Position numbers and translations under genes: made by a program. The notes beneath the pieces were generated by a model. The model ran no database searches, had not been told where the DNA came from, and saw only the letters and a program-made list of their open reading frames with translations. A stretch of 64,000 nt of DNA from Utricularia gibba (Eukaryota; Streptophyta; Magnoliopsida; Lamiales; Lentibulariaceae), in the NCBI GenBank assembly GCA_002189035.1, contig NEEC01000014.1, forward strand, positions 1,118,501 to 1,182,500, given 5' to 3'. Positions 3,558 to 52,445 of this stretch are shown in pieces (the stretch's first letter is position 1; every line of letters begins with the position of its first letter).

Positions 3558-3910
3558 CTAACCTGAGAAGCTGGAGGTATACTTATCGAGAATCGTGCCG
3601 ATTGCGGCGGCGGCGTCGAGGCCCATGGAAGAGAGTGATTGAGCGACTGAATCGATGGTGGAGATGGGAGCGGAACGGAGGTTCGGGTTTAGCTGGAGGG
3701 CTTTCGTGGTCAAGGATTGTAGGTAGACAATTTTTGCCTGAATTTCACGCCGGCGTCCTTGACCACCGCCGCCGGACCTTGCGAAGGGCCGAGATGAGCA
3801 TTTACGGCGGTGCGGTTTGCGTTCAGCCACAGGCTTTTCGCGTGGAAAATCCGCTGACGGGCTCCGAAGATAACGCCCACCGAACGACCTATGGGCCTGG
3901 CCTTATTCAC
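3558..3910 (-). pseudogene. mTERF-like N-terminal fragment
   Basis: On the minus strand a frame reads AKIVYLQSL, then ALQLNPNLRSAPIS, then QSLSSMGLDAAAAIGTILDKY, resembling the helical repeats of plant mitochondrial transcription termination factor (mTERF) proteins, which act in organelle gene expression. The segment before it (AAVVKDAGVKFRQK) fits the same protein but is in another frame, with the switch at a five-base A/T run (3731-3735). The frame ends at a stop overlapping a possible donor (CAG then GTTAGA at 3558-3563), and I found none of the remaining mTERF repeats down to 2400. The simplest reading is a truncated gene relic; a real first exon of an unusual gene cannot be excluded. Family assignment is tentative because only about 60 residues are informative. 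Confidence 0.45.
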
Positions 3911-4034
3911 CCTTTGCTTAGACCGAAGGAAAAGAAAAAAGGGATAATTACGTCATCGATGACGACAAACAGGATCGGTCCATTCGCGGGAAAATTGCAC
4001 AAATACGTTCGTTATTCCCAGGTGATGACAACTC

Positions 4035-7644
<3,610 letters not shown>

Positions 7645-8506
7645 TTAGCTGCTACGACCCCTCATTGAGGGAAGCCATCTTTCTCCTCTCACTCTCTTAA
7701 GCTCAGCAACGCGCTCCTCCTCTCTTCTTGCTCTGGCTTTGGCAGCTGATTCTGCAGCTTCAAGTTTACTTAAAGACTTCTCCATTGCAGCCTTTGAAGC
7801 GGTGATTATGGCATCCCCATCAATGGCAACTGATGAAAGCTGCTTCTGGAACTACAAAGACATGATCTTGAGTATGAAAACTAAGCCACATGATTACATG
7901 TATGTGGATAGAGCTTTACTTAAGAAGAATATGCTCACCTTTTTGGACGTTTCACGAATCTCTGCTCCAGGAATAATCCTCGGTCTCTTTGTTGGCCCTG
8001 ATCACAAAAGGAAAACTAGTGTAAAGGTCAATGAATCACCAAAAAGCAATGGGGAAGATGCGATCAGGAGTCTTGTGGGGATGCCTTTTGCGTAAGCCTT
8101 GTTAGAGGGTGCAGCAGGAGGAGGATTTCTCAAAAGCCTAAACCCTGAAACCCCATTCGTCTGCGGTTCTTCAGGAAGATCCAGGTCCTTACCAGTCACA
8201 AATTCGAAACTTTTCTCCAGTTGTTCATGCAAAAAATTCTGCGCCTGTCAATGATTTCCTTCAAAATTCGTATATGCTGTAAATTGAAATGCGGAGGGAG
8301 GAAAAAATGTGTATGAATTTGATTCTTCAGAGAAGGCAGAAAGGGAAAACCTTGATTTGCCATAACTTGTCCTTAGGCGAGGAGCGCTGTTCAGCAAGGG
8401 CTTCTTTCGAGGACTGAGGACCAACGGCGACGGCGGCTACGACGGAACGTATGCCGGCCCTCCACTCCTCATCGCCGTCGTCCTCGTCGCTGCTACTCCG
8501 GCCCAT
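7645..8506 (-). CDS. conserved plant protein of unknown function (208 aa)
   Basis: Four exons (minus): 8506-8351, 8244-8040, 7997-7939, 7851-7645; 627 nt, 208 aa, all phases consistent. The N-terminus is acidic (MGRSSSDEDDGDEEWRAG). The middle has FLHEQLEKSFEFVTGKDLDL and a proline-rich stretch, followed by GPTKRPRIIPGAEI. The C-terminal third is a charged alanine-rich helix that looks like a coiled coil (KAAMEKSLSKLEAAESAAKA), ending in REEERVAELKRVRGERWLPS. From memory the blocks GPTKRPRIIPG and RGERWLPS recur in uncharacterised proteins of other plants, so this is a real gene. There is no signal peptide or membrane segment, and the composition suggests a soluble, perhaps nuclear, protein. 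I do not know its function. Confidence 0.8.
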
Positions 8507-8779
8507 CACAATTCCCTCTTCCTCAATGATTGGGCCGCAATCTCTTCAATTACCCGGATCCGACCCACAAATACGAAATTGGGCCGTTATAACGGGGAAG
8601 AAAAATGATGGCATTCAAAGCAGTTGCCGATACAAACGGAAACGCGATCGTGATGAAGATACAGGATGACGAAATCTGTACGAACCTCATCTTCATCTCT
8701 TCATTTCCTTCTCTATATATAACCATATGCATGTTCTCTTCTTCACTGGAATTCCAGATCCCTAGAGCACTCCACGACG
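8507..8779. promoter_or_regulatory. divergent promoter between 208-aa gene and LTP
   Basis: TGGGCC-type site II motifs occur near 8498, 8528 and 8580, closest to the minus-strand gene. A clear TATA element (TATATATAA at 8714-8722) lies about 60 bases before the LTP start codon and fits plus-strand transcription. Confidence 0.6.
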
Positions 8780-9342
8780 ATGCCCAACTCCATCCTCTTC
8801 CTCCTCCTCGCTCTGGCATGTCTCTCCACCGGTTCCGCCGCGAGTAATTCCTCTTTGCCGTGCATCCCGCAATTGCTCCCATGCCAGCCGTACTTGAAAA
8901 ACCCCTCGAATCCGCCGATGTCGTGCTGCATGCCCATGAATCAAGTGGTTGACACAGAGCTCCCCTGTCTCTGCGCCGTCTTCAACGATACCTCGATCAT
9001 GAGGAGCTTCAACGTCACCAGATCGGACGCCATCCTTCTCGCCACCAATTGCGGCGTCCGATCCGCTGGAAATCTGTGCCCTAGCGATCGTAATCTCGTT
9101 AAATTTCTGCGCGACTTTCTCTCAATTGTGTAAATTTCGATTCATGTGTTCCTTTTTTTGGTCTAGAATCGGAAGCACCGGATGCCTCACCCACCATACC
9201 ACCACCGACTCAACCCGCCGCCGCGGCGCCTCCTCATCCCGCTAATCCAGGTGTTGCACTGTCTCCACGCATCGGATTTGGGTGCATCGTCACGGCGCTT
9301 GGCGTTGCCCTTCATGCGCATGTACAGGAGTTCTGGGTTTAA
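8780..9342 (+). CDS. GPI-anchored non-specific lipid-transfer protein
   Basis: Binds lipids at the cell surface; family members help build cuticle and suberin. Two exons: 8780-9089 and 9167-9342 (486 nt, 161 aa). Exon 1 encodes a signal peptide (MPNSILFLLLALACL, cleavage near residue 21-23) and the eight-cysteine module, with the CC pair in MSCCMPMN, CLC in LPCLCAVF and the last cysteine in NLCPS. Read without splicing, the frame would stop at 9133. Splicing at GATC/GTAATC to GTCTAG/AATCGG joins a proline-rich linker (SPTIPPPTQPAAAAPP) and a hydrophobic C-terminus ending HVQEFWV, the usual layout of a GPI-anchor signal. Phase matches exactly. The TATA box at 8714 supports the start. Confidence 0.85.
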
Positions 9343-9941
9343 AGCTCCATATCCCCCATTTTTTTATAGACCGAATTGACTAAATTTTTATGTGCTATGC
9401 TCGTCATACATATAACATATTCCAAGACATGCAAATGAATAACAAAGATCATTGCAACGAGAAATTATCATAAAATATTACATAAAGGATTTTCTTGTCT
9501 CAAAATAACGTAGATTTATTTAATCAAATTCGACTATCAGTTTCGGTATCAATTAAATATAAAATGTGATTTGATTCGTTATATTAAAATTGTGAATCAC
9601 GTATTTCCAAATCTGAAATAATTTTTTATTTGGAATAATTTTATTTATGAAGATATTATAGAATTTTAATTTTTAATTTATTACAGTATTTTTTGATAAA
9701 TTATATCAAATATAGTTTAATAATTTCGACGTATTGAGGAAACATAATTGATAATTTATAAATAAAATAAAAAAATTGACAAAAATGTTTGTTCGTTAAA
9801 TATGAATATATTATATATATGTCTTGCTGGGTGGGCTCAAGGTGGACGGTTGCAACTTACGGTTCACGCTCGGCAGCCCAACGTTGGGGGAACAAAAAAA
9901 GCCCTAATTCCAGAGGTGTGGAGTGAAGGCGCAAGGCAGCC
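9343..9941. other. AT-rich spacer and mS35 promoter
   Basis: Bases 9380-9820 are AT-rich without a gene. Bases 9828-9905 are GC-richer and contain TGGGCTC, CAGCCCAACG and a telo-box-like AGCCCTAATT just before the mS35 start, consistent with a housekeeping promoter. Confidence 0.5.
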
Positions 9942-11690
9942 ATGAGAAGAGCCTTGCTCCGTTGTACCTCTTTGCGCTCTAGGAGCCTCATTCCTGCGCT
10001 GCCTGATGGTATCGGTTCGCATCGCATCTTGTGCGCACCTCTGCCGGCGGTGGGCCGTATTCCTCCGGAATTCAGATGTTTCTGTTCCGATAATGGTACC
10101 TCCGATCAGAAACTGCAGACAAGTAGCTCGGATGCCGAGGAGAAGAATTTGGCTTCCGTTGATGTGAGCGATGTAAGCAATAGAGGTATTTCTTCAATTA
10201 CACACCTTGACTTTTACTCCTTCCTTTTATGAATGCTGGCATTTCTTCAATTGTGATGTGTAAGCAGATTGCTTTCTTGCTCGTCTTTATGTTTACTTAA
10301 CGAAAACTATTTGCTTCTCTGACTGTTTGCAGAGTTCAAGGCTCAGTTGGAGAAGTATCTTCACCATTTTGACGAGGATGCACTGCCGGAAATTTTCGCG
10401 TCTGTGCTCAAAAGGAAGCTTTCTGAAAAGCACGAATATACAGATGATGAAATAACGGAAGAGTTTCGGTTAAAACCATTAGACAATGTAGATGACAAGG
10501 AATTTGACTCAGATCTTGACGCCGCCCTTGAAACTGATGAAGAAATCGATGATCTATACAATGCAGGGGACATAGTTATAAAGAGAATGGCATCAGATCC
10601 GTACTTCAATATGACTCATGAGAAATTCACTGACTTGATTAAAGGCGCCATCAAGCATGGCAATCTCCAGGATACAAGGGAGCTCGAGGAAACCATTGAA
10701 GACATGCAGCACTGGGACAAGCTTTTGCCCGGTATTGTTCACGATCCCTGTCCGGTGTTATTTCATTTTGCTAACGCGTTAGTCCCCTTCATCGGTTTTA
10801 AAGCCAAAATGCCCTTTTCGGATTACCAGTTCTCCTTTTGTTATTCCAGTTCTGTGTTCCTTACTGATAGCAGGGGTCCGGCCTTGTTCTTCCATTTACG
10901 TATGTTTGCAGCTAGGCGAATGAGAATTATTTGATTCTTACATTTGTTCAGATGACGCCAAGAAGCGGATTGAAAAGAAGTTCCATGAGATTGGGGACAT
11001 GGTCGAGAGAGGAGAACTGGATGTCGAAGAAAGCTACCCAATGTTCAAGGAGTTCGAGGATCAGATTGTTAGTGAACTGATAGAGCGAGAGGAACAGGAA
11101 CAGGGGCCTCCCCAGTTTAGCGAGCATGATAATCAGGAACTGGATGATCCACCAGGTGAGGGTCCGGTCCTGCGTTGGACGACGCGAGTTGTTTTTTCTC
11201 CAGGCGATGAGCAATGGCACCCCAAGAATAGAAAAGTGAAGTTGGCTGTCACAGTGAAAGGGCTAGGCCTCTCCAAGCATCAGTTTGTAAGGCTCAGAGA
11301 GTTGGCTGGGAAGCGATACAATCCTGGGAAAGATGAGCTCACCATTACCAGTGAGAGGTATGATCCTTCATTTTCTGTAATGCCACGCCACATTCACACT
11401 GCCTATCTTATGTTGAAAATTCATCTCCACTGTTCGTCTTGCTTGAATGTTATTGCCATGAACATATGTCTATGGTTCTTTATCCTCGCCTCAGGTTTGA
11501 GCATCGGGAAGAGAACAGAAAGGACTGCCTGAGAACTTTATTTGCTTTGATTGAGGAAGCTGGGAAAGCAAGGATACTTGTGGAGGAAGCACGAAAGTCG
11601 GAAGTAAAAAACCGACTCTTGGCTAATCCAGCCTTTCTGGAGCGATTGCAGAATGCAAAACAAGTTGCAGGAGAGCAAACCATGAATTAG
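9942..11690 (+). CDS. mitochondrial small ribosomal subunit protein mS35
   Basis: Component of the mitoribosomal small subunit. Four exons: 9942-10185, 10333-10731, 10952-11357, 11495-11690 (1245 nt, 414 aa). The N-terminus is an arginine/serine-rich mitochondrial presequence (MRRALLRCTSLRSRSL). The middle is acidic and helical (LEKYLHHFDEDALPEIFASV, DMQHWDKLLP). The conserved S24/S35 core lies in exons 3-4: KVKLAVTVKGLGLSKHQ, RLRELAGKRYNPGKDELTI, then FEHREENRKDCLRTLFALIE. Splice sites are canonical and phases agree. It ends 247 bases from the convergent BUB1 stop codon, so the two 3' UTRs probably meet or overlap. Confidence 0.9.
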
Positions 11691-11937
11691 GAGGCTTAAG
11701 GTGTTGCTGTGGTTCAGACAACTCCATTTTGACATGTGCTGCCCATAAGCTTTTGACTTCTCCGTTCAGCTGGAAGCATACCATGGAATAACAAACAGGC
11801 TTTATGCTTGATGTGAAACACCGAACTACGTTTACATGCAGGCAATTAACTCCCTCATCTTCTAGATTGAAGATATTCAACATAAGTTCAGCATCCCCAG
11901 TGCATAGCTTTGTATCCTACAGTTCTAGATGTTAGAA

Positions 11938-14900
11938 CTAAGCTGAACACAAGGATGCTCTTTGCTTTACCAGTAATTGCTTTAGCTTTTTTATCAACTT
12001 TGGATCAGAACAGATATGGTCCTGAAATGAACACCTTAATGACTGCAGCAATTTCTTGTGATCTGTAACCGGATCGATGTTGAGTAGATTTGCAAATAAG
12101 TTCTCCCAAAGATCCACTTTCCAATACCTGTAACATGGTGCAGTGTTTGAAAATCAGATACATGCCGGTGAAGATGGTGAGATACAGATTTGAAGATGAT
12201 GAAGACGAACCGCTTAAGACGTGATTTTGGGTGGTAGGTATGAGTTCCACCAGGAGACGGTCTCTTTTCAAGATCCACGTATGTATTGTGAAGCATCATA
12301 TGCACTATGACGCACAGTCCATACAGGTCCACCTGCATCAATGGAACGTTATGTGACAGCTGGACTAAGGTCAAGATCCTGCTCTGTGTAGACCTTCTGA
12401 ACATTGTTACTAATGTTGTTGGCTACTAAACCAACAACTGTTGGTAAATAAAAGAAGTATGCGGTTACCTGAAATGTCCATGGCTTACTCTCTTGCATCT
12501 CGATGCAACGAAAGCCAGAAGTCCTACAATCTCCATTAAATTGCGTGTTATTGGGAAAGAGGCCGAGATCTATTCCTCGTCCCCAGTCGACAAGACATAG
12601 TCCCTGACTTAGTGAGCAATATCAACATGATAAAATGCGAAGACACAGTACAAAATGCTTATTTTCACGTGTACAGAAGAAGTGGTTCCTTACCTGATCG
12701 CCCCATGGTCCAATACGATGACGGAATTCGTTCTCATTTTCTGTTGGGTCATCCCTACATGCGAACATGGTTATGGCTGTTGTATCCAACCAAGGCCGAG
12801 AATAATCAGGATGTGACTTAAAAGAGATGCACCATGGACCCAACACAGTTTCTGGTTTTACATATCACAGTTGGTATCAACAGCTTTTGAAGATATTTAC
12901 CTTGAATACCGAATGAGCAAATTATCAGGCTTGAAATCCCCATGGATAATACCAGCATCATGAAGTGTCTCAAGGATTTGGAGCATTTCTATGGTGTAAT
13001 ACATACATAATACTTCATCCATAAACCCACCTTTAACCACATGTGAGTTTATTGCATCCTGTGATAAGAAGTTTTCAATTCAGTAATGACTCATTCTTAA
13101 AGCTATCGCAGAAAAAAAAAAAGAAAAGAAAAAGGAGAACTCGGATGCATGAGGAAACCAAGAGCATTAAACGTGAACCTGAAGTGTCCCATGGGCAAAA
13201 TAATCAGAGACCAGGACACTGTAATCTGAGTATAGGTGCACTCTGTGAGCAACGCCAAAGCTCCTTCTCTAAAATCGTGATGATAATGATGAGAATAACA
13301 ATATGATTTCAGTATTTAAGAGAAGCGAAGTTGAGTTGTGAATCATGAGTTTGTACTGGCATACTTCTTTTTGTGGTATCCGCACATCAAGCTGACGGTA
13401 CATGTAAAATTCCCAGGGAAAAGGTGGTTTTTGGATCTGCAGAAAGAAGGATAGAAATTGACAGAAAATACAATTAGGAGCACAGTACTGGATCTAAATA
13501 AGAACATTTTCTGGGATATGATAATGCCTTGAGTGCAACAATATCATCCGGGTTGCTGTTGATGTATGCTTTGAACACTTGAGCGAAGCCCCCCTGACCA
13601 GCACAACCTTTAATCTGATATTTCTGTCCACCTTTTAAAAATCAAACGACAACCACTTAAGGAAAAAAGAAGGAGAAAAACAAGCAAATGTAAATTATTA
13701 TGGCTTCAAATGTGCACTGAAAATACCTATGTCCACTATTTTATTTCGTGCTGTTTTCAGCAAGGATGATAATGAAACCTTTGCGGGGTATGCCTTGTTT
13801 GTCGAATGGTATCCCTGAAGAAATCAGATGTATTTTCTCATTTTTTCCAAAAAAAAATATGTTGTAATACGAAATAGAATGGATTTCCCTCCTGACATGA
13901 TCTCTCACCTCGTAATTTACAACCTGAGCATTCATCTTCAATAATAGATTTTTTATTGTTAAAGGAGACCATGGATTAACCAAGTCCTCACAATTCTGCA
14001 TATGGAGAACGGCCGTTATGTTTAGCAAAGTTGAAAAATGCAAGCGAACATGAATGTATCATAAGATAAAGGATTACCACGGTGACACATAACGAATACA
14101 AAACCATAATTCTTACAAAGTCGTTACATGAAAAAAATGATAGAGATGAGATTAAGGTATACCTTCTGAACAGATCCTCTACTAACTTTCTCAGACATTC
14201 TCTCGAGAAACAGCACTTGTGCTTTTTTCAGTCGCCCCAGAGGCTGAGCATTTCTGGACAGACGTCTCAAGTTCTCATTTAACGTTTCAATAGAAGGACT
14301 TATTCTGCCTTGTTCAAACTAAACAAATAATAAAACTTGAGCTAATGAACCTGGAGATGCCAAGGTTGTACATGCCACATGCATCAATAAGCCTGCCTTT
14401 TGCTTCAAGGAACAAGGCTACAGATTCATAAAACTGCGCTTTTTGGTGGCAAATATGAAGCTCTTCCATCTCCCTGAAGACCGTTTCATAGTCAGGGCTG
14501 CCATCCATCTATCAATAGTAGGGAAAAAAGTAAAAGATCTTATCAAAAGACGAATACATTCAAAACCCGTTTAACTTAGTGAGAATCCACTACGTCTAGT
14601 AAAAGATAAATCATCATTACACTTACGTAAAGTATCCAAACTTTAAGAAATCTGACGTCGTCTCGATACCTTGAATCGAACTTGAAGGCATCGATACATT
14701 TCGATAACAACTCATAGAAATCAGAATATCCATTACCAAACTGAGTTTCAGTGTGAATCAGAAGCGATTCATGAATGGATCTGCATAAATTTCGCAATTC
14801 ATGAACCTAGCGCAAATACAAAGGAATCATACAACAACAAAAATGAAAAATCGCGCATCATTCATACATTAGCCAAGGCAACAGAGGATCAGCTTCAGCA

Positions 14901-14941
14901 TCTTCAACTATAGCGTTGACATTTGTTGGAGCGATGGCCAT
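11938..14941 (-). CDS. spindle-checkpoint kinase BUB1 (BUB1/MAD3 family)
   Basis: Kinetochore kinase that delays anaphase until chromosomes attach. Fourteen exons (minus): 14941-14868, 14806-14627, 14508-14351, 14253-14163, 13995-13909, 13814-13727, 13631-13528, 13436-13365, 13268-13179, 13058-12901, 12754-12694, 12603-12469, 12332-12211, 12127-11938. Exons 1-4 carry the TPR-like Mad3/BUB1 region (DPLLPWL, FYELLSKCIDAF, YESVALFLEAKGRLIDACGM). The kinase domain has glycine loop GCAGQGGFAQVF, lysine in VALK, catalytic loop HGDFKPDN and DWG in place of DFG (VDWGRGID). The total is 1610 nt, one short of a multiple of three: exon 1 ends in phase 2 but exon 2 needs phase 0, so a base is missing near the first junction or the model is wrong there. 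Intron 7 starts with GC (AAG/GCATTA). About 536 aa if mended. Confidence 0.9.
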
Positions 14942-25459: not shown

Positions 25460-26761
25460 ATGGCTTCCTCCTTCCCTTATCTCTGTTTTACGCCTCTCAC
25501 GGATTCTGTTTCCAAGCGCACTCTGATCGAGTCCGTACATCGCAGATCTTTGGGCAGTTCTCAGATTTCTCCCAAGCTCGTCTCCTCACGAGCTGGAGCC
25601 ACTCTCGATGACAAGGGCTTCTACGGGGACTCTGCACCGGTTCCTTTGCAAGAGGAAGCACTGCCCTATAAGGTATTCAGAAGATCCTAATTTATGCGTT
25701 GTCCGGAATTGGGTATGCTTTACCTCTTTTGATTTCTTCCATTGGGCCCCTTCCCTTGTTCGTTTCTTTAAAATGCGTGTTTACCTTGTAATGTAGGCTA
25801 GGTGTATGATGAAATGATTGAAGCTGACACGGGTTTAATGTATGCGTAAATTATGTTAAGGAAGTGGAGGAGGCCATACGTGTACTCAAAACCGCTGCGA
25901 AGACTAGGAAAGTTGAGGCGAAGGAGATTCTTGGAGCTTTTTCTGTGATTGAGAAGGCAAAGCTTGATTCTGTTGGCTTTCTTGAGACACTTGGAGGAAC
26001 ACAGTCCCCTGGACGAACATGGATGCTTGTTTTTACTGCAGAGGTCAGGTTTCTCCGCTGTTCTCTATCCTCTATGTTCCATTCGATAATTCTTCTACTC
26101 CCACTTTTGATCAACAGAAAAAAATGGACAGTGGAAAATACTTCCCAATCACCGCTGTTCAGAGATTCGATGCTGCTGTAAGCTTCTTCTTGTAAATCCA
26201 GTTCCTGTTCTTATCTCCAGTTCTCCTAGAGATCGCCTCAATTCCAATATATATTCAACCGAAATTTGTGCTTGTGAAAATGAAATGTCCATTGTGTTTC
26301 TGTTTTGGGCCACTTCTGTTATTACTAATTGTCTCTACCCCTTATCATATTTACTGATTCTGACATCATAAGCAGCTTATTTCAACTTCTCCTAGACAAT
26401 CAAACTCATCAGTAGTTCTCTGCCTGACATATCCCTGGAAGTGTGTAACACTTTTTGAAGTTTCGGTTTTCATGGTGCAGGGAAGAGAATTGAGAATGGT
26501 GTGTACCTAGGTGCTCTTGGGAGCCTAACCTTTGAGGGGCGATTTGCATGGAAGAAGAGAATCCTCGCATTCGTATTCGAAGAGATTCGAGTAAAACTGG
26601 GACCATTTGATCCCTTAAAAGTGCGCTTCAACAGCAAAGATACTGAAAGGGAGCCAGGGAACAAGGATCCATTCTTCATCTGGTTCTATGTTGATGAGGA
26701 GATTGCTGTTGCTCGTGGCCGCAGCGGGGAACTGCTTTCTGGGTTCGTTGCCAACGTATAG
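25460..26761 (+). CDS. plastid-lipid-associated protein (fibrillin), PAP13-like
   Basis: Fibrillins are plastoglobule and thylakoid lipid-associated proteins. Four exons: 25460-25672, 25861-26043, 26118-26177, 26486-26761 (732 nt, 243 aa as read). Residues 1-60 look like a transit peptide (MASSFPYLCFTPLTDSVSKR). Conserved blocks: ILGAFSVIEKAKLDSVGFLE, GRTWMLVFTAE, ENGVYLGALGSLTFEGRF, LGPFDPLKVRF, DPFFIWFYVDEEIAVARGRS. The C-terminus diverges abruptly after GRSG. Adding one G to the GGGG run at 26726-26729 restores the family-typical GGTAFWVRC and moves the stop to 26769. The acceptor at 26486 was chosen by phase over the stronger-looking one at 26481. Subfamily label from memory. Confidence 0.85.
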
Positions 26762-26769
26762 GAGACTGA

Positions 26770-28030: not shown

Positions 28031-28196
28031 AAGTTTTTGTTCATCTCATCATTTTCATGTTAAGTTCATTCAGCTGCACTTGACTTTTTCTATTTAGATT
28101 TAGAAGTTTAAAAGTGAGTATTGAAAAAGAGTACTCCAAAACTTCAGATTTACAACCAACCGGATATGCTGAATGTCCCCTTGTCAGTTGCGAAAG

Positions 28197-31100: not shown

Positions 31101-31590
31101 AAGAATCACTTCTACTACTAGGTTTCACCAAAGGATTCCTCAGAACACCACATATGTCGCATGCAGTAAAGCTATCTTCATTATAATACGTACAAATTGG
31201 ACAAGACCAGCCTATAACGGCCACTTCCTGCCTTGACATCGCATTTGCATCTGTTCCTAACTCAAAAAAACCAACAAAGACTGAAATTCAGGCATGCGAA
31301 TAATCAAGGAAATTTAATCCTAAAACGTGTTGCCTACAGCTCCAAGATTAAACAATATCAACCATGCTCAGTTTCAATTATATTGAGTTATCTACAAAAG
31401 AGGTACCGTGGAATGTTCTGTAACCAAGATCGATTTTAACATGAACGGCCCAAGTTCACACCGGGTTAGGAAAGCTAACCTTGCAAAGTCCTACCACTTT
31501 CGGGAAGTTCATCGGCAGAATCGTAACCATAATCATCAAATTCATCATACTCATCTTCAAAATGTGCTCGATACCCCCCTTGTGAGGCAT
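28197..31590 (-). CDS. HBS1-like translational GTPase (HBS1/SKI7 locus)
   Basis: With Pelota, HBS1 rescues stalled ribosomes; the SKI7 isoform links the exosome to the SKI complex. Eleven exons (minus): 31590-31480, 31256-31095, 30804-30571, 30444-30367, 30267-29996, 29911-29801, 29724-29240, 29104-28936, 28873-28634, 28537-28403, 28328-28197. Exon 2 encodes a RanBP2-type zinc finger (WSCPICTYYNEDSFTACDIC). Exons 3-4 hold the region used in SKI7 isoforms (DPFKFDVPSPDDLVSNGL). GTPase motifs: GHVDSGKST, RGITMTV, DSPGHRD, NKMD. The EF1A-like beta barrels follow, ending GIVTQVTESEW. The total is 2129 nt; one extra base in the six-base G run just after the ATG (31574-31579) is needed for 709 aa. 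Exon 1 has two donors 15 bases apart. A 5' UTR intron and a short upstream ORF are likely. Confidence 0.93.
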
Positions 31591-33608: not shown

Positions 33609-33809
33609 AGAGCTGGGGTGATGGATGATCTTCCAACCAGCTTTCCCCCTTTAATCCTTTTGAGATGGTTTTTAGCCAGAAAAACCACTTGTTTTGCGAT
33701 CTGCAGCACTTGGGAACACATTTTGCAAATATGAAGTTGCTGTTGCTCAGTTGTTTGTCTGTCTCCCTCACAACTCAACAATACAGAAAAGGTATGTAAA
33801 TTTGATCTA

Positions 33810-37974: not shown

Positions 37975-40203
37975 TCATGTCCAGATACGTATGCTCCCAT
38001 TCTTGTCTGAGGTAGCCAAAGGTTTCCCAAGATCACTCCAAGAACAGCATAATACAGGAGATGTATGTTCCTTCAGGCAGCTCACGATTTTCGAATTTGA
38101 CACTGACCAGATGTGTACACTCCCATCCGCAGATCCAGCAGCAACGTAGGCGTTATCAGGGCTCATGCAGGACCTGCTCCAGTTTGAAGCAATCCTACCT
38201 CCATTTCCTCTCAAGGTTGCACATATTTCAAGAGTCCGCATATCGAACAAGTTATGCACGTTGTCTCTCCCACTAGACAAAATCACGTTCCCATTTCTGG
38301 ACAACGAGACGGATGTCACAGCAACAGAGTGTGCTGCAACTTCACTCAGAAGTTTTCCAGTTTGAATATCCCATAAACGGAGATTTCCATCAACATGACC
38401 TGAGCAAATGGTATGGCCATCCATACTAAAAGAAAGAGCATTACAGTTGCTGTGGAACAGAAGAGTGTTAACACAGTATCCTTTATGAAGGTCCCAAATT
38501 TTAATGGTGCGATCATAGGCAGCACTTACGACATTTCGACTGGATACTCTGCTAGCATCAACAGCACATACCTTGTCCATATGTCCTGTGAGAGTATGTC
38601 GAACCCTGCCAGAACTAATATCCCATACATACAAGTTATTTTCACTGCTAGCTGCAAGAACTGTCTTGTTATCGTGAGTAATGCATATATCAAGTACTGA
38701 ACCCAGGCAACCATAGAGAGTACGAATTAGTGATCCACTGAACGTATCCCAGATTTTCACAGCTTTGTCTTGTCCCCACTAACCAATTTACTGGAATTAT
38801 GCTCGAATAAAATTGCCGAAGAACCACCCTCATGGGCAGGAATCCTAAAATTGGGCGTGGTGGGAATCTTAGACTCAACATAGTATTCTGCACCTTCTTC
38901 AAACTGGCGAACTATGCCATCAACTTGTTGATGGGCAAGCGCTTGGATGCTACTCCCCTGAAGGCTCTTCGCCTCGCCTTCAAAAATTGCATTTGCCTTC
39001 AATTGAAAGTGATTATGTTTAGCAGACTGACGATTAATAATGTGGAAACCAAAACTAGGATTGCTGACATAGTATGTGCATTCAGAAGCATTCAAAATCT
39101 GTGGTGCAGAAAATAAAACACACATGGATACCTCATTAAGGCGTTCAGCCTCTTTCATTTTTTCTAGCATCCAACGATCAATTAACATCTTATTTTCTGC
39201 CTCTAACTTGTCCGCCCTGGCAGTGGCTGCTTCAAGAGCGGCTTTTAGATCCTTATGCTCAGTCAGCAATAGCTCCAGAGCTTTGGTTTTTTCATCCAAA
39301 GTTTGGGTCAAAACAGAGCATTGCTCTCTGGGAACAAAGTGACCGTGAAACAAAGTCAAAAAAAAAAGTTGGTTCTTTACAAAATGATGGCATGAGAAAA
39401 AAACAATCTCAGGGAAGTATAGAAGCCTTGTACAAGTTACTGTGCAAGTCATATCAAGCCAAAAAAAAATCTCCGAAAAAAGAAAAAACCTTGATTGGCT
39501 TAGCTCATCTTGCAACTTAGAAACAAATGATTCTTTCTCTTGGACCAAAGCTTTTGCAGCCCTGGATTCAGAAACTTCAACCACAAGTTGCTCAGACAGC
39601 CGAGATTGAGCTTTGTAGCAATGTTGGATTTCGACCTCAAGATTTTCAACTTTCTCCTTCCATTCTGACCCTTGACTCAAGCCAAAAACATATGAAGGAT
39701 AATGTTCAGCGACTACAGAAATAGCATACAATGCTTACTCAGCACAAAAGGCTGGACAGAGGGTTTGTGAGGGGAAATCCAAGCCAAGTTAAACGGGTAG
39801 GAATGAATTTAAAACATTTCGCCTATCAAGAAGGTGATATGAAAAATATGTGGCATTGAATATCGACAAAGAAACGCCAACACAGAAATCATTACGCTAG
39901 AATCGGAAAAGCTAAATCATCTGAGAACGAAAAAAATAAATCTAGAAACACTACACGTACATGAGATAAAATCGGCCGAGAAAGAGCAACAAAGGCAGGT
40001 GAATGAGCACCCTCCTCGAGTAAATGACGCTTCTTGAGTGCCTTCATAGCATGCTGTATGGCTCTGGCAAATGCGTCATCTTGCGACCTAAAATGCAGAG
40101 AGCAAACCCATAAACCCACAAACAAAAGATCGCCATCATTGACTAGAAAAACCCAGATAAAGCAAACAAAACAATCAATTCATCAAAAAGGAAAAAATTA
40201 CAT
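37975..40203 (-). CDS. autophagy protein ATG16 (coiled coil + WD40)
   Basis: Scaffold of the ATG12-ATG5 conjugate that directs ATG8 lipidation. Exons (minus): 40203-40202, 40087-39957, 39670-39490, 39327-39132, 38996-37975. The ATG start codon is split: AT ends the first coding exon and G begins the second (then SQDDAFARAIQHAMKAL). A coiled coil follows (SEWKEKVENLEVEIQHCYKA, QSRLSEQLVVEVSESRAA, ENKMLIDRWMLEKMKEAERL), then seven WD repeats in one long exon (DKVCAVDASRVSSRNVVSAA, YDRTIKIWD, GHVDGNLRLWD, GSADGSVHIWS). The coiled-coil frame stops at SGDKTKL; one extra base in the CCCC run at 38774-38777 restores SGGQDKAVKIWD and joins both halves (510 aa). The exon 2/3 junction is also ambiguous. 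Confidence 0.9.
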
Positions 40204-41933: not shown

Positions 41934-43213
41934 ATGGCGGAAGACAACAACTTTATGAACCTTGATCTCAATCTGGGACCTGTTGAGATTTCGAGTAATG
42001 ATGATGGTGAGGGTGTGCATGGGTCATATCCTCATATTACTATGAGGGTGGAGGATTTGTTTGATACTGCTGCAGCTCAGTTAAGGGGAGTTGCACAACT
42101 CAGAAGCCGTCGGTGGCGAACACTACGGAGGCATCTGCCAGTTTCTCCTGAGACACAAAGTCTTTCACTAGAACTAATCACCAGAAATGACCTTCAGATT
42201 GGTGAGGGTAGTGTCGCACCTGATGGACAGGCTATTGAGGCTGCTAAAATATGTGAGAATTGCACCAGCTATGCAGAAGATAAAGATTTAGTTACAAAGA
42301 AAGACTGTGAGAAAAATAATGGCGTTGAAGGCAGTTTCTTTGACTGCAACATATGCTTTGATTTGGCTATGGACCCTGTGGTTACTTGCTGTGGCCATTT
42401 GTTCTGCTGGCCCTGTATTTACCGATGGTTGTATCATCATTCTGATGTCAAGAAATGTCCCATTTGCAAGGGAGGAGTAACCATGAAAGATGTGACCCCA
42501 ATTTATGGTCGTGGTAGTGATAAACGGGAGACGAAGTTCGATTCCAGTCTGAAGATTCCCCGAGGCCTCAAGCTTGCAGCATTCAAGGTAGGAGGCACAT
42601 TTCCAGACCCACGTTTCCAATGGATGAAGTGATTCGGCACCTGGAAGATACGTATGATGTGAATAGACAGATTGCTGAAATACATGCCAGGAGTTCTGAT
42701 GGGATTTGGGATTCACAAGAGAGGTCTCCATATCCCCGGGTTTCTATAGTTAGAGGAATACATAGAGAGCAGCCTCCAGGCATGCAAAATGGTGATTTAA
42801 GTGACGCTGGAGGTCTGTACAGAGGAGCAGAACCAGCCCATTCTGTGACACCTGATGTTGCACTCAACTTGGTGGGAAGCAACCATCTTGCTCATGGTGC
42901 AAGAGAAATTCGTCGTCCGCGGTCTGTCGGGATTCGCAGGGCGCATGCTCAGCAAAGTGCTTTGTCAAGTCTCCTTGTGGACTCATACATTAACCTTAAT
43001 CCTCCGGAAAGAAACCAAGAACCAGACAGGGATTCAGTATCTAGCATAGTAGCCGCCATACATTCAGAGAGCCAAACAGTTGACAATGCAGTGGAAATTG
43101 ATTCCACAGTGGCCCGTTCGACTTCATCTTCCAGAAGAAGAGCTGATGCTTCGAGGATCTCAGACGTTGACAGTGGAGACTCACCAGCATCACGGCGTAG
43201 GAGACTCAATTGA
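41934..43213 (+). CDS. RING-type E3 ubiquitin ligase (MUSE1/2-like)
   Basis: Single-exon gene. The first half (MAEDNNFMNLDLNLGPVEIS) contains a C3HC4 RING: FDCNICFDLAMDPVVTCCGH, then LFCWPCIYRWL and KKCPICKGGVTMKDVTPIYG, as in the plant RMA/RNF185-like group. The second half (MDEVIRHLEDTYDVNRQIAE, a Ser/Arg-rich tail ending SPASRRRRLN) is in another frame. Adding one C to the CCCC at 42558-42561 merges both into 426 aa with the family-typical KIPPRPQ linker. Similar long RING proteins in Arabidopsis (MUSE1, MUSE2) control NLR immune-receptor levels; the similarity is from memory. As assembled, the frame stops at 42632. There is no C-terminal membrane anchor of the kind seen in short RMA proteins. 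Confidence 0.85.
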
Positions 43214-44407
43214 TCCTTCTTCAGAATAAGCCACCGCAGCACCGGCAGGATATTCATTCATTCCTGCCAATAGAGACCACCTCCTTGTTTATATGATGGC
43301 ATGCAACATATCAGGTTTTGTACCTATTGTTTCTATTGTACTGCTTACTATCTGAGAGCCCTGAGTTCATCAACATTTGTTCTCTTCCTGTTGTCTCCAA
43401 TGTCCATTGATATCTGATGTGCTCAATGCCAATGGCTTCCATTATAATATGTCCGCTTTCCATCTCCATCTCATTTTTGTGAAAATCTCCATGTTTTGCT
43501 CACATGAACCCCATCCCCACAACCTGCATTCATCATTGAAATCCATGCAGAACAAAGCAAGTGATGCATATGTCCACTTTGTATCCAATCCATGGTCTGA
43601 TTTTACATTGTGAGCATTTCCTTTTTCTCCCATTGCATGTATGCACCACCAGGTTCAACCCAAAACTACAGGCATCCTACAAATCTTCCTTGTTTGCAGA
43701 GCAGTTCTGTGTCATCTTCTTCGAATTTCCAGGTTTTAGCACGGGAGCAGTCATGGAATGACAGTTTGGGTCTGTTCGGTTTTAGTTTGAATAAAAATAT
43801 TTTTAAAAGTGATTTTTGAATAAAATATATATTAATTCTGTTTAACGTGGAGTTGAAACAGTGGAATATGTCAATTTTTTTAAAAGTTTAAATAATTTGT
43901 TTTAATAAAAACTAAAGTATCTTAAAATCATTTTTCTAAAGTTATTTTTTGGAATTATATCAAATGGATTTTTTGTTTATTATACAAATTTTGTATAATT
44001 TATTTAATTATAATTATAATTATTTGTTTTAAAAAATAATTTAAAATTATACCATTTCTTTTGGGGAAAATTAAGTTTATTTATTAATTTATTTCTTTTG
44101 GGGAAATTAAGTTTAAACTGTATTACCAAATATGTGTCGGTGGGTCACAGCATTTCTCCCGTTGGAAGAGATGAGCAGATCCAGTAGTCCAATTCAGTTC
44201 AGGGAGGCGTCTTGGATTACCTTCTTTCTTATCTGGACGGCGATCGGAAAATCAACTCCTTGAGATCCCCGTTTTTCTTCCTTCTTCTTCACAAGTTGCA
44301 GGCGTTCTGTGGCCCGGAGAGTTGTCACTGGTATGCACCTGGTTTCGTGAAGCGTGGTTTGTTGGTTCATTTGATTGCGAGCTTTTTGATCTGGGTTTGC
44401 TGCCGGG
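43214..44407. other. spacer and O-fucosyltransferase leader
   Basis: The RING 3' UTR occupies the first few hundred bases; 43780-44130 is AT-rich; the O-fucosyltransferase 5' UTR probably starts near 44150-44200. AATTAAGTTTATTTATT/AAATTAAGTTTAAACTG around 44070-44115 is a short direct repeat. No gene. Confidence 0.45.
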
Positions 44408-46042
44408 ATGAGGGAATTGAGTGTAACAGATCCAATTGGGCAAAACATCATCAAGCTGGTGAGCAATGTGTGTTTCTCTGCGTTTGTGTTGTCTGTACTT
44501 ATAATTACTGCCATTGCCATCACGTACCAACCGCCGGATCCATGGGAGTCTTCTAGGGCTCTCACCAAGGTTTTCACTCAAGTTCATAATGCCACATTCC
44601 AAACCGACACTTCTGTTCTCAGAACCGGGGAGGACATTTCTCAAGCTCTTGATGATCCACCGACAATAGCCATGCCTTTGAGCGAGAATCCCGATACGGG
44701 AAACATAACCCTGAAAACGGGTTGTGAAGATCAACCTGTGGTGAATTGTTCTGATCCTGGAGTTCTCATCACTATCAAGAGGTTTAACTCGAGGACTTTC
44801 AAATCTATTGTGTTTTTAGATTATCAGATTCCAGTCAATGGGTCTAAACCTGATGAGTGTGATGTAGCCTGGAGGTTTAGGAATAGAAAGGAGAAATCCT
44901 GGAGAAAGTATAGGGATTTTAGGAGATTTAGAATTGGGTATAAGGATGATTGTAGCTATAAGGTGATTCGCCCCGGGCGTTGGCACTCAGGTCTGAATGC
45001 TCGTCGTCCAAGCAGTCAAGTTGCCCCTAGAAGCGGCCAACAACCAAAGAGTGTTCCTCAATTTCGAGATGATGAGATTAATGATACAATTCCTGTGCTG
45101 GGATCTGATCAAGCTTTTAGGAATGGTAGGTACTTGTACTATTCAAGGGGAGGAGATTATTGCAAGGGGATGAATCACTACATGTGGAGCTTTCTGTGTG
45201 CTCTAGGTGAGGCACACTACTTGAACAGAACCTTCGTGATGGATTTGAGTATCTGTTTGGCTTCCTCCTACACGCAGAGCAACAAGGATGAGGAGGGAAA
45301 GGATTTTAGGTTCTACTTTGATTTTGAGCATTTAAAAGAAGCTTCTTCCATTGTTGAGGAAGGTGAGTTTCTGAAGGATTGGAAGACATGGGAGAAGAAT
45401 CATAAATCGAAGATAGCAGTCCGGAAAGTCCCAAGCTACAAAACCACACCAATGCAGCTGAAGAGAGACAAGAGCACAATCATATGGAGGCAGTTCGATG
45501 CTCCAGAGCCAGAAAATTATTGGTACAGAGTGTGTGAAGGCCCTGCTGCTAAATATATTGAAAGACCATGGCATATGCTTTGGAAATCTAAGAGACTAAC
45601 GAACATAGTTTCTGCCATAAGTGGGAGCATGGACTGGGATTTCGATGCTGTTCATGTTGTTCGAGGGGACAAGGCAAGAAACAAGGAGCTGTGGCCAAAC
45701 TTGGATTCTGACACTTCCCCTGATGCTCTGGTCGCCAAACTCCAAGAGACAATCACACCCTGGAGAAACTTATACATCGCCACCAATGAGCCCTTCTACA
45801 ATTACTTCGATAAGCTGAGATCCCATTACAAAGTTCATCTGCTGGACGACTACAGTCACCTCTGGGGCAATACAAGTGAGTGGTATAACGAAACTTCAAT
45901 CTTAAACGGCGGCCGCCCCGTCGTGTTCGATGGCTATATGAGAGTAGAAGTCGATACAGAGGTCCTCTACCGATCAAAGACGAGAGTGGAGACATTCTAC
46001 AACCTGACCAAGGATTGCAAAGATGGGATCAACACATGCTGA
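44408..46042 (+). CDS. O-fucosyltransferase-like (GT65/POFUT-fold) membrane protein
   Basis: Intronless, 544 aa. It looks like a type II Golgi protein: short N-terminus, membrane anchor at about residues 16-40 (FSAFVLSVLIITAIAITY), then a lumenal domain with several N-glycosylation sites. The nucleotide-sugar fold shows YYSRGGDYCKGMNHYMWSF, CALGEAHYLNRTFVMDLSIC, and the GDP-binding type motif HVVRGDKARNKELWPN followed by LYIATNEP and YKVHLLDDYSHLW. This matches plant proteins annotated as O-fucosyltransferase family. Acceptor substrate unknown. The start is the only ATG that leaves an intact anchor. The final residues KDGINTC are unusual but in frame. Confidence 0.85.
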   Translation: MRELSVTDPIGQNIIKLVSNVCFSAFVLSVLIITAIAITYQPPDPWESSRALTKVFTQVHNATFQTDTSVLRTGEDISQALDDPPTIAMPLSENPDTGNITLKTGCEDQPVVNCSDPGVLITIKRFNSRTFKSIVFLDYQIPVNGSKPDECDVAWRFRNRKEKSWRKYRDFRRFRIGYKDDCSYKVIRPGRWHSGLNARRPSSQVAPRSGQQPKSVPQFRDDEINDTIPVLGSDQAFRNGRYLYYSRGGDYCKGMNHYMWSFLCALGEAHYLNRTFVMDLSICLASSYTQSNKDEEGKDFRFYFDFEHLKEASSIVEEGEFLKDWKTWEKNHKSKIAVRKVPSYKTTPMQLKRDKSTIIWRQFDAPEPENYWYRVCEGPAAKYIERPWHMLWKSKRLTNIVSAISGSMDWDFDAVHVVRGDKARNKELWPNLDSDTSPDALVAKLQETITPWRNLYIATNEPFYNYFDKLRSHYKVHLLDDYSHLWGNTSEWYNETSILNGGRPVVFDGYMRVEVDTEVLYRSKTRVETFYNLTKDCKDGINTC

Positions 46043-46732
46043 GGTACTTCATCAAGTTGTTTCCCCCATCAACCTGGTGGTGCCATTGATGTTGCCATAC
46101 TTGCTTTCCTTCTTTTTCTCTCATGCGTCCGCCGTTTCATTTTCTGTATACCTGTTTCTTATGCAATATCTTGTCTCTGCTTCTGAGAGTGCTGCCTTAA
46201 CATTACAACCGCATGTTCTTCCCTTCTTTGGTAGACGCAAATATTATTATCTTAATAGGAATACCATTTGATTCATCAAATTTTAATCCTAATACCATCA
46301 TAATAACGATGTATTATACGAGATACGATATAATTATTGTATCATTCAAGATATGAATGCAACATAAACTTAATAGAAATATCATTTGATTTGTCAAATT
46401 TCAAATGTAAATATGATAAACCTAATATAAAATTTTGTTAAATTTAAAATTATAGAGAATTCATAATATTATGAATTAATACATTTTTAAAAATTTTAAA
46501 AAATATTTGAATCTTCATTATATAATTTTGATAACTTAAAGTTTTTTATTACAATTTCAAATTTGAATTATTTTTATTACAATTTGCTAAATTTTTAATA
46601 TTTAAATATTTAAAAATATAAATACGTTTTTATGTATTTTAAATAAGTTTTTTTTATTTAAGTTTTCTTTTTCGCCAAAATTTTCCAACGGTCAGTCAAT
46701 CTTATTAAAATCTGGAATTTCCAAGCGACAGA
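46043..46732. other. AT-rich spacer with diverged direct repeat
   Basis: A block near 46253-46285 (AATAGGAATACCATTTGATT...) recurs near 46371-46403 (AATAGAAATATCATTTGATT...), about 118 bases apart, with several substitutions. The rest is A/T-rich and without a gene. The O-fucosyltransferase 3' UTR and the IGPS 3' UTR share this stretch. Confidence 0.5.
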
Positions 46733-49140
46733 TCAAGAAATACGTTTGCCGAAGAGCTGAGCGATTCCCTCCGCCGGATCCTGGTGCTTGACAATGGATT
46801 CCCCCACCAGAACCTGATCCATCTCACGAAACACTAATCAGTCGCAGCACGAAATGGCTTCCCTTTGCCACATCAAAACACACAGAGGAACGGAGACTGT
46901 TCCCTGCTTACCGCTTTTACGCCTGCCTCCTGGACATATGCAATATCTGCGGGAGTGAAGAGCCCGGACTCGCCAACAACCTGGAGGCGCATTCGGATAC
47001 AGCTTAGTAAAGGAACAAGATACTTCCATGGATGGTTGTTAGGTACCGTAATGCCGCGTCGACGGATGCATTCGCCGCGCTCGCCTTCAAGAAGTTTTCT
47101 TGTGTTCTTGATATCAACCTCGAATGTTCCTGCATTGAGGCAGCAGCATGAGGGTGAAAATGAGCAAGCAAGCCATATTTTCTTTGGCATGAAGGGAATA
47201 TACCAAGGTCACGGTTGTTGATGCCGACAAGTTCGACGCCGTCGATGGCTAGAACTCGATCCATCTCCCTCTCATCATGCACCTGAAGAAGGATCAATAG
47301 AGTAGATGTTCATATGGGCAGATAGGAGGTTGCTGAGTAGGAGATCAACAGCCTCACCTCAACAAGTGCTGCTAGTCCCAGCAGCTTGCAGATTTTGATC
47401 ATGTACTTGATATCCAGATCAGGTAGGATGGCTGCAATCAGCAAGATGGCATCTGCGCCCTTGACTCGGGCGTAGTAGATTTGCCAGGCATCTATCACGA
47501 ATTCTTTACAGAGGAGTGGGCACTAGGCTCAAAGAATTTCAAACTTCAGTTTGAAAGTAAAATGTAAAATGCCACACCTGCACTATATTGAATAATAGAA
47601 TACCTGCACTCCCGAGCCTCTTATGCGTTCCAAATTTTCAAAGCTTCCCTGATGATATCCAATATAAGCAGGGAGTTGAAAATAAGTTATCCTGAACTGA
47701 TCTTCGGGGAATGATTTTCCACTTTTACCTGAAAATACTTCTCATCGGTCAACACACTAAGACATGCTGCACCTCCTCTTTCATAAGCCTTAGCAATCTG
47801 AACCTGTGAAAACAACCAAAAGCTGATATAGGGGTCAAGAATTTGAAATCTTGGGAACATGTGAATTTGGACCATACTCAACACACTAAGAATATGGAAT
47901 TTGGACTATACTCAAAGAGCAAGAGATACAACGAACTACAGGAAAACATGCATGGCATTCCTACGCCATACGCCCCACTTGTCAAAACTCTGATGTGTTA
48001 AACGAAATATACTAGATAAAAGAGACTAATGCTACTCTAGAAATTTTAGATAGGATATGGTGAATGAAATACATTAAATAAGAGAGATTCAGGGTCACTC
48101 AACATGACAGGAGTCTGATATGTTACATGAGATATAATGAATTGGACTTACAGGATCGAAATCTTCTCTGATAACTCCTCTGCTAGGAGAAGCCTTTTTA
48201 ACTTCAGCAATTAAACCAGGTAACCCAGTCCGGGAATTGGCTTCTTTAAGAGCCCAATGAAATTTCTAGCTGGAGGTTTATTTTCAAGCATCTTTTTGAG
48301 CAGGGCCAGTGGTTTTCTCTCCTTGAACTTACAATACCAAAGATCATTTATCATCTACTCATGCATCTTTTAGGAATCACATAAGATGAAAGCATGCTGT
48401 TTACCCAAATGTATAACTACCTGAGCCACTTCCTTGTCCTTGTTCCAAACAATCTCTTCGAGAATGCTACGAGGCGTGTTGCCCTCATTCTGTAGGCGGA
48501 ATTCAAAAGGACCAACGTAATGAAGAGGTGGACCCGTTAGTGGTCGTCTCCTAATTTTAATACCTTGTGTTGAGGCAACTTCATCTTGAAACATCCCTAT
48601 CTCCCAATCCTTTGCTTTGAGTGCATCTCCTTCAGAGATTTTATCATCCGAAACAGCCGATCCATCTTTCATTTCCATCTGACAGTGCATAAAAAAACAT
48701 CCATCAGATCCCAGATCATGCACTTCCACTTCAGTGCACTAATAAAAAAAAAAAAAGGTGGAACCTTTTTGGTTTCTAGCATGGCTCAGTTGGAAAAAAT
48801 GGAAGGTGGGATTCATGAAAATAAACCCATTTGTAAAAGAACAAAACTTAAGCCAATCCATTGAAACCAATCAATTAATATCAACGAAAGCGCCCAGAAA
48901 ACATTGTAACAGTTCTAGACGGGGGCACCGATCACCACATTAAGAAATCATACAGAAATCCAAAACGCACGCTTCACTTGCCTCCCGGGCCTGAACAGAA
49001 AATGAAAGCTTCTTCACATGAGTGTCAGTCTGCGGAGGCCTACAAGAAACCGGCTTGGAAGACGCGTATCTGAGCGATTTCTCGCTAGAGATTTTGTGGG
49101 CGCAAAGGGTCGAAGCTGATGATGCTCTTATCGCCATCAT
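46733..49140 (-). CDS. indole-3-glycerol-phosphate synthase, chloroplastic
   Basis: Makes indole-3-glycerol phosphate in plastid tryptophan synthesis, upstream of auxin and indole products. Ten exons (minus): 49140-48982, 48678-48421, 48327-48152, 47803-47729, 47648-47604, 47522-47358, 47282-47204, 47129-47047, 46980-46912, 46813-46733. Residues 1-50 are a transit peptide. Conserved motifs: [112 protein letters not shown]. The total is 1190 nt; exon 3 breaks frame after ARNFIG and is restored by one extra base in the GGG run (CCC at 48253-48255), giving 396 aa. Intron 1 is GC-AG (GAG/GCAAGT). The start could also be the next ATG at 49137. Confidence 0.93.
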
Positions 49141-49833
49141 TTTTCACACCAGTGATGGCGTTGCACTTCCTAAGTCCGCGATTATGAAGCAGATCAAGGA
49201 TGGGGATCCCGAACGGATTTCGCATAAATTCCTCGTCCAGAACAAATAAATCCCCAGAAATACAAGAAAAGGGAAAAAACAATAATAAAAAAACAAAATA
49301 TTTATGTAATTTCTGATAAAAAAAAATATGATTTTTTAAAAAAATACAAAAATGGAAATTGAAGGGCTTTTGGGCGGTTGATTTCGATCCAATCTCGTGA
49401 TTTAGGGCCGAAATTAACATAAAAAATCGTGATTTAGGGAAAATAAAACAAAATAATGCTACTGGAGAAAAGGAAGAGCCGGGGATCAGCTTAGCGGGTG
49501 GGGGAGGCGGAGCGGGGAAGCGCATTGCTTCGTCTTCTCATCGGAAAGGCTTAATCTTGTTAACGTTTCTTCATTTCGCCGTACAGAAATTGTGATTGCT
49601 GTATTCGTGCCGTAAATTCTCTGTGTTTGGAGGTCCGTTGATGTTTATATTTCTGTAATTCCGGCCGTTGAATCTGTAGTTGCTAGCGCATTGGGTTTCA
49701 CCTTGAATTGGGAAGAAGTTTTCAATCATCAGCGAGTGATGTAACTATTCGGAACTTTCAGCGTTAGATTCGAATCCTAGTGGGTTTTCGTTTTCTATAG
49801 ACTTTTTTTTCTTTCGTTGAATTCAGTTGGAGA
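49141..49833. promoter_or_regulatory. IGPS/WNK divergent promoter and WNK leader
   Basis: An A/T-rich segment (49250-49350) lies next to IGPS. From about 49500 GC-richer sequence and T/C tracts look like the WNK 5' UTR. No gene. Confidence 0.4.
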
Positions 49834-52445
49834 ATGCCACCGGACTCTGCTTACGAGCCCGACCCGGACGATCCCGATGCTGAACCTGAGTTTGTTGAGG
49901 TTGACCCCTCCGGTCGGTACGGTCGGGTTCGTCCAATTTCTTGTTCTATACCTCATTTCTCTTTTTCTTTTTTTTTTTTAAATGATAATGTGTTGGCTTT
50001 TATTCAGTTTTGGAAGTTTAGCTTTGTGGCTGGTCTTTTTGTTGTTGAAGTACTAAGTTGTGTTTATTGCATTTTGGCAGTATAAGGAAGTTCTAGGCAA
50101 GGGAGCTTGCAAGAAAGTGTATCCTTTCTGTATTTATGAGTACTTCTTCTTTTTTATTATTTGTATTTATTCATTTATGTATATATTTTTTTTTTGTATC
50201 CTTTGTGTTTCTATTGGTTTTTGTGTACTACTTAACTATGTTATACAAGATATCGAGCTTTTGATGAATGGGAAGGGATAGAGGTAGCATGGAATCAGGT
50301 TAAAGTTGCTGATCTTTTACGGAATTCAGTTGATTTGGAGCGCCTATATTCGGAAGTTCACTTGCTGAAAACCCTCAAGCACAAAAATATCATCAAATTT
50401 TATAATTCTTGGGTTGATTCAAAGAACGAGCATATCAACTTCATCACTGAAATTTTTACTTCTGGAACCTTGCGACAGTACGTTATTTTGCTCTATCTTC
50501 TATTTTGGCTTTCCAGCTGGTGAGATGTCATTCTAACTTTTGTTCTGCATTATGCAGATATAGAAAGAAACACAAGCATGTTGATGTCCGGGCACTCAAG
50601 AAATGGTCTCGGCAAATCCTCGAGGGACTTTCATATCTTCACAGTCATGATCCGCCAGTTATTCACAGGGACTTGAAATGTGATAATTTATTTGTAAATG
50701 GGAATCAGGGGAGGTAAAAATTGGTGACTTGGGACTTGCCGCCATTCTTCAGCAAGCTCGTGCAGCTCATAGTGTCATAGGTGAGATGGCAGTGGATTAT
50801 GGCTTCTGTATTTTTACTTTTCTGGTTCATCGTCTAATTATGAAGAAGAAAGTTGATTTTTCATTCAGGCACCCCAGAATTTATGGCTCCAGAACTTTAT
50901 GAGGAGGAATACAATGAACTTGTTGATATATATGCATTCGGGATGTGTTTGTTGGAGCTGGTGACACTAGAGTATCCGTATGTGGAATGTTCTAATGCAG
51001 CTCAAATATTCAAAAAGGTTACTGCGGTGAGTTACCTTTCCATATGCCTAGGTGCTGTTGCAGAATTTAATGTGTGCCAATTTTTTTTCCTGCTCTCTTA
51101 ATTCCCTGGCGAAAAAAGAGATTTCATGTTATAATTTTCTGATCTTGATGCTATTTTTTTTGAATTATATTAAAGGGAATCAAGCCAGCATCTTTAGGGA
51201 AAGTGAAGGACGCTGCTGTTCGTGCATTTATAGAAAAATGTATTGCAAAAGTATCTGATCGGCTGTCAGCCAAAGAATTATTGATGGACCCATTTCTCCA
51301 ATCCAGCGAGGATTCCAAACGAAGCCAACCACTTGACGAGCCCCAGTCAAGTTCAGGTATATTTTGTTAGCTTTCTGTACTTGTAGAGTTTCTATTTCAT
51401 CATAATAATCGACTTTGATTTTCCCAGATCATAATGACAAAACTAATGAAGACCCTGTTCCGGAGGGCAGTCGTGACTTCACGGTGCAAGGTCAAAGAAA
51501 AGATAATAACACAATATTTTTGAAGCTCCGTATAGAAGATATTTCTGGTAACGTGTATATCCTATACTGTTGTGTCTTCGTCTTCAGTAAATCTTTTGCT
51601 CCATGAGTCTTTTCTCGTTTATACGAGCATCTGTTTCCTCTTTGACTGCAGGTAATGTCCAAAACATTCACTTCCCATTTGATATTGAAGCTGATACTTC
51701 TACAGCGGTTGCGAGTGAAATGGTTGAAGAGCTGAAACTGACAGATCATGATGTCACAGTGATTGCTGCAATGATTGATTCTGAGATCCAATCTCATATT
51801 CCTGACTGGGCACCTAAAGAAGAATTGAGCGTGAATAGCGCTGTTGGTGATGAAGCAGTTTCAGGGAGCTGTTTGGAAGACATTTCCATATTGCCAAATG
51901 ATGTGGACCAACCTAGTCCTCATCTTGTGGAGAGACTACCGTCCGGTCGCCAGTACTGGAAAGACTCACCCATTGCTAGCGCCGGAAACTCTCCGCACAT
52001 ACCTGGGCCATCTCGCCATTCAGTTGACTCAGGGGATAGCTGGTTTGAAGACGTTACACAGTCACCAAATAGCCATAGGGACTCGAGCTTTTCCTACACT
52101 GCTTCTCCTCTGAGGCATGTGGAGTTTGACTATCAGCATGCCAGTTATGAAAAAGATACAAAATGTGATGAATCTGGAAATCATCTGGAACTGTCTGATG
52201 AAGCACAATCCGAGGCCCGCCCAAGTGAGGTTGAAGGCATAGTGATGAAGCTCGAGCATATGTTGGAGGAGCAGATGAAGGAGTTGGAGGAATTGAAGCA
52301 AAAGCACAACAAAGCCATAGCAACCGTGTTGAAGGAACTTCCACCAGAGACAAGCCAGCTGGTTCTTGAAACCTGCAGCAAAAGGTTTCTCGGGGAGGAG
52401 AAAAGTAGCTACACGGTATCTGGCTCCATGGATGTGGTGGATTAA
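49834..52445 (+). CDS. WNK (with-no-lysine) protein kinase
   Basis: Eight exons: 49834-49926, 50081-50118, 50250-50477, 50558-50780, 50869-51026, 51176-51356, 51428-51547, 51652-52445. The kinase begins near residue 25 ([20 protein letters not shown]). Subdomain II has AWNQVK in place of the usual catalytic lysine, the WNK hallmark. Catalytic loop [11 protein letters not shown] for DFG, then [20 protein letters not shown]. After the kinase comes an OSR1-C/PF2-like domain ([37 protein letters not shown]) and a C-terminal coiled coil ([20 protein letters not shown]). WNKs act in ion homeostasis, flowering time and osmotic signalling. The total is 1835 nt; one extra base in the GGGG at 50708-50711 restores [14 protein letters not shown] and 611 aa. 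Confidence 0.92.

Follow-up and report, generated by a model that had tools for sequence, protein, structure and literature searches.

Single-Base Losses at G/C Runs Break Conserved Genes in a Utricularia gibba Assembly and Very Probably Reflect Residual Consensus Error

Results

Gene Content of the Window and Its Duplicate Segment

The window analyzed here is a 64,000-nucleotide stretch of plant nuclear DNA from Utricularia gibba (C98:1118501–1182500), taken from an assembly of 100,091,633 bases in 516 contigs. The genes in it are ordinary plant genes, which we named from the sequence and, for some, with the help of family searches: an expansin-like gene, BUB1, a ClpS-like gene, a PAP/fibrillin, HBS1, an F-box gene, ATG16, a RING E3 ligase, a DUF7075 gene, indole-3-glycerol phosphate synthase (IGPS), a WNK kinase, a small GTPase, and the E1-alpha subunit of PDH. 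A duplicate segment of the window is found at C409:1.709–1.744 Mb, from which many genes have since been lost; a second copy of HBS1 or ATG16 was not detected in this segment. The lipid-transfer-protein gene at window positions 8876–9046 has its duplicate at C409:1744370–1744536, which is one base short in CTCCCC(T)GTCTC, either through the same error that is discussed below or through true decay. Two short AT-rich stretches of the window (46323–46577 and 43780–43965) have dozens of genome-wide matches at roughly 67–85% identity and are probably an old dispersed element.

Frame Breaks in the Window

A sequence-only reading of the window had named eight genes with a one-base break; in seven of them it placed the change to the neighboring frame at a run, and for BUB1 it gave no run. 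All run coordinates that it gave proved correct, and five of the eight breaks are firm one-base losses, each at a G/C run: those in HBS1, ATG16, the RING E3 ligase, IGPS, and WNK. The breaks in PAP/fibrillin and BUB1 are plausible, while that in an mTERF-like copy had to be struck off.

In HBS1, which is encoded on the minus strand, the run is a C6 on the plus strand (G6 in the gene) at 31574–31579 within exon 1 (31590–31480), and it is one base short: The frame from exon 1 to exon 2 (31256–31095) closes only with one extra base and, if left unaltered, runs into a stop. Exon 2, downstream of the break, encodes a recognized zinc finger; the N-terminus of HBS1 is without Pfam recognition. The loss in ATG16, likewise on the minus strand, concerns a C4 on the plus strand (G4 in the gene) at 38774–38777, located between the coiled coil and the WD40 propeller (VSG|GQDKAVKIWD), and one added base takes the number of WD40 repeats from six to seven. 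The RING E3 ligase on the plus strand is one base short in the C4 at 42558–42561, after which the frame goes on as PPRPQACSIQ...; its whole-genome-duplicate copy at C409:1727520–1728971 is intact and reads as a single open frame (IPPRPQACSIQSRRHISRS...) where the window shifts frame. IGPS, on the minus strand, lacks one base in the C3 on the plus strand (G3 in the gene) at 48253–48255 (NFIG|ALKEAN). Unaltered, it has no Pfam match, with one base added it scores 41.9 bits, and the alignment of the joined frame with a solved IGPS (PDB) spans the break site. Finally, the plus-strand WNK gene scores 41.9 bits for Pfam Pkinase unaltered and 63.1 bits once one base is restored to the G4 at 50708–50711, and the alignment of the joined frame with human WNK1 is free of gaps at the break site.

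The last exon of the PAP/fibrillin gene (plus strand) has a probable one-base loss in the G4 at 26726–26729, by which the last ~12 residues are altered. The frames as read fit such a loss, but Pfam returns 17.1 bits unaltered and 15.1 bits with the extra base, both under the cut-off. In BUB1 (minus strand), the exon 1/exon 2 junction (14868|14806) is indeed one base out of phase, and the joined frame matches Mad3_BUB1_I with 79 bits. Because this break falls at the splice acceptor, an alternative exon 1 is possible; a G lost at the acceptor would plausibly account for the phase break as well. The mTERF-like site at 3731–3735 (minus strand) was dropped as an example of run loss, as it belongs to a truly decayed tandem duplicate with further gaps of 1, 2, 3, and 9 bases, and comparison with two relatives identified the absent base as a G beside the T5 and not as a T. 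The mTERF-like fragment occupies window positions 3516–3876, with a tandem copy just outside at C98:1118067–1118439 and another copy at C505:700423–700746.

The Same Lesion across the Genome

The type of lesion found in the window recurs throughout the assembly. All 19 homology-verified coding losses are single-base losses of a G or a C, and none of the 19 lesions is an insertion. In 17 of them the restored run is at least four bases long, compared with ~5–6% of bases that lie in G/C runs of at least three as assembled (p ~ 1e-18); some of these loci were picked for being broken, with run content playing no part in the choice. In the HSP70 family, adjoining matches without space for an intron were found to fit one lost base, and the sequences were then read: This gave six breaks, spread over five loci that each lie on a different contig, every break with one G or C lost (C304, G6 to G5; C496, C4 to C3; C451, G4 to G3; C1, G4 to G3; C255, GG to G plus G6 to G5). 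The DUF7075 gene is whole in the window, while its duplicate on C409 is one base short in each of two G runs. Moreover, an exon of a second WNK gene (EFMAPELY) is broken in C413 and whole in C248.

For the P450 genes, the prediction was fixed in advance that most of eight loci with early-ending matches would lack a single base in a G/C run. This was the case for five of the eight; the other three have an ordinary short intron and were rejected as breaks, and no other type of lesion was seen among the eight. One of the five, C412:1909806, could also be a loss from an A run (GGGGAAAG) and was counted as G. A clear break was not seen in ~20 histone genes, which therefore say nothing about the kind of lesion; a rate of about one per 4–7 kb would predict no more than one or two breaks among them. 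PPR matches were too short and too numerous and were left out of the frame-break scoring.

These results narrow two general statements of the sequence-only reading. Genes without runs in their exons are in phase, as it had held, at least among those checked, but G/C runs that are intact are numerous too, for example the C6 in a PDH exon near 61338 and the G5 in the last IGPS exon. The losses are also bound to runs, but almost exclusively to G/C runs and not to homopolymers generally.

Sequences Assembled Twice

Three small contigs (C241, C248, and C376) are near-copies of parts of the large contigs C304 and C413, and such redundant sequence can be used as internal replicates. Between C376:17001–26000 and C413:5400857–5409856, 9,000 aligned bases are free of substitutions and interrupted by three one-base gaps, each of which lies in a G/C run. 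No mutational mechanism is known to us that produces three indels over 9 kb, each in a G/C run, without a single substitution. A consensus artefact does yield such differences, and the pattern is therefore assigned to one. The second pair, C248 and C413 from 438893 onward, gives an alignment of 9.8 kb. It contains 16 substitutions and two longer gaps (11 and 27 bases) in addition to 14 short gaps of 1–3 bases, mostly within G/C runs; it is one of these short gaps that breaks the second WNK exon in C413. With both pairs pooled, the length of runs of at least four bases differs in 9 of 87 G/C runs versus 1 of 283 A/T runs (p = 1.3e-5), and that of runs of at least three bases in 13 of 332 versus 2 of 771 (p = 8e-6). 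The share of discordant G/C runs rises with run length, from 0.02% at a length of one to 1.6% at three, 8.8% at four, 7.7% at five, one of five runs at six, and the one run at seven. In the window, A/T runs of up to 23 bases stand. The duplicate pairs of the lipid-transfer, NF-Y-like, and ClpS-like genes were left out of the gap counting, being too divergent outside the exons.

An HSP70-like gene carries a common one-base break in C241:17700–17900 and C304:2235450–2237560. This pair was set aside as an independent replicate: After ~3.0 kb of complete identity the two contigs diverge, and they may rest on the same reads, so that reads common to both, an error made twice, and a true mutation are indistinguishable here.

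Selection and Expected Number of Losses

The broken genes are constrained over their whole length, and purifying selection is still seen beyond the breaks. Calculated on the joined frame, dN/dS is 0.22 upstream and 0.21 downstream of the break in the RING gene, 0.022 before and 0.026 after the break in the HSP70 gene on C496, and 0.09, 0.04, and 0.05 across the segments around the breaks in the DUF7075 gene. Finite values are thus available from three gene pairs; in the HSP70 pair C451/C409 synonymous sites are saturated and give no ratio. Additionally, we halved the replicate rates and applied them to the 198 G/C runs of at least four bases and the 730 runs of three bases in the window. This yields about 16 expected losses in the 64 kb, coding and non-coding together, which fits the losses seen in conserved exons, of which five are firm and two probable.

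Discussion

The sequence-only reading had proposed systematic deletion from the consensus. This proposal is backed by the discordant replicates, by the single-base losses found genome-wide, and by purifying selection beyond the breaks, and on these grounds the frame breaks are very probably residual long-read consensus errors. The sequences assembled twice are the decisive result for such residual error and not biology. At a G/C run, typically of at least four bases, the assembler would sometimes report one base too few; a base dropped in an exon would then shift the frame and make an intact gene look split or truncated. The longer run would be the true one in every case, and the broken genes of the window are probably intact in the living plant.

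The reading of the genes as real pseudogenes in decay since a whole-genome duplication finds some footing in the duplicate segment on C409 with its many lost genes and in the window copy of the mTERF-like gene, a truly decayed duplicate. The mixture of stops, insertions, and larger indels that marks a pseudogene is, however, found in this mTERF-like copy and not in the broken genes examined, which show one-base G/C loss only and are free of insertions, stops, and larger gaps that break the frame. Relaxed selection is likewise not seen, dN/dS being equal on both sides of the breaks in the three gene pairs, and for HBS1 and ATG16 no second copy able to stand in was detected in the duplicate segment. 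As it is moreover implausible that, among five cytosolic HSP70 genes compared, two should be dead, we regard decay of these genes as very unlikely. A related possibility, small but slightly larger, is that a minority of the shortened G/C runs is real, with slippage at G/C runs being raised and some genes newly dead; the HSP70 gene on C304, with the same break in two contigs, might be such a case. True polymorphisms or alleles could be suspected from C248 and C413, where the 16 substitutions and the two longer gaps (11 and 27 bases) look like real divergence. However, C376 and C413 differ in the length of three runs despite their complete lack of substitutions in 9,000 bases, and short gaps hardly occur outside G/C runs, with A/T runs matching even where they are longer, which leaves allelic variation with a chance even slighter than that of decay.

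Two further explanations place the cause in the gene models or in the expression of the genes. Unrecognized introns or misread gene models did account for the three P450 candidates with a short intron, and the BUB1 break sits at a splice site, but in the five firm genes of the window the two frames abut at the run and leave no space for an intron; as a general cause, introns are extremely improbable. Programmed frameshifting or RNA-level insertion, by which the plant would read through the breaks, agrees with the continuation of the frame after each site. Nevertheless, the sites share no signal beyond the G/C run, exon runs of equal length are mostly in phase, and the contig pairs differ in the same manner along their full length without exons being singled out. 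Furthermore, we know of no mechanism of this kind, neither programmed frameshifting nor RNA insertion, in plant nuclear genes, and consider this explanation next to negligible. Residual consensus error thus stays the strongly preferred reading.

Comparison with known systems helps to specify the presumed error. In nanopore data, long A/T runs are expected to suffer too, in contrast to the present assembly, in which only 1 of 283 A/T runs differs in length from one copy to the other. Otherwise nanopore assemblies are similar in that homopolymer deletions fragment genes and inflate pseudogene counts (PMC12007338, PMC8812927). U. gibba was assembled with HGAP, a pipeline whose polishing step uses Quiver (PMC5793159), and the assembly analyzed here is probably a PacBio-only product of HGAP and Quiver. 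A bacterial HGAP/Quiver assembly of ~3.2 Mb contained 561 one-base homopolymer deletions, which were detected with Illumina reads (PMC4888979). The two cases are alike in that one-base homopolymer losses survived Quiver polishing, at about one per 5.7 kb in the bacterium and roughly one per few kilobases here. They differ in that the losses in U. gibba are almost confined to G/C runs, while no base bias is stated for the bacterium. Pseudogenes from fractionation after duplication also resemble the present breaks by showing apparent frame breaks in one duplicate copy; by contrast, there is here one type of lesion, selection is intact downstream, and the breaks also affect housekeeping genes for which no duplicate was detected.

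Conclusion

Our analysis tells nothing new about the biology of the plant; its relevance is to users of the assembly. The redundant small contigs provide a reference-free measure of consensus error. With one base falsely lost every few kilobases of exon, a sizeable share of the genes would be split or truncated by automatic annotation, and claims of gene loss, truncation, or pseudogenes that are drawn from the U. gibba assembly need to be checked with short reads or cDNA.
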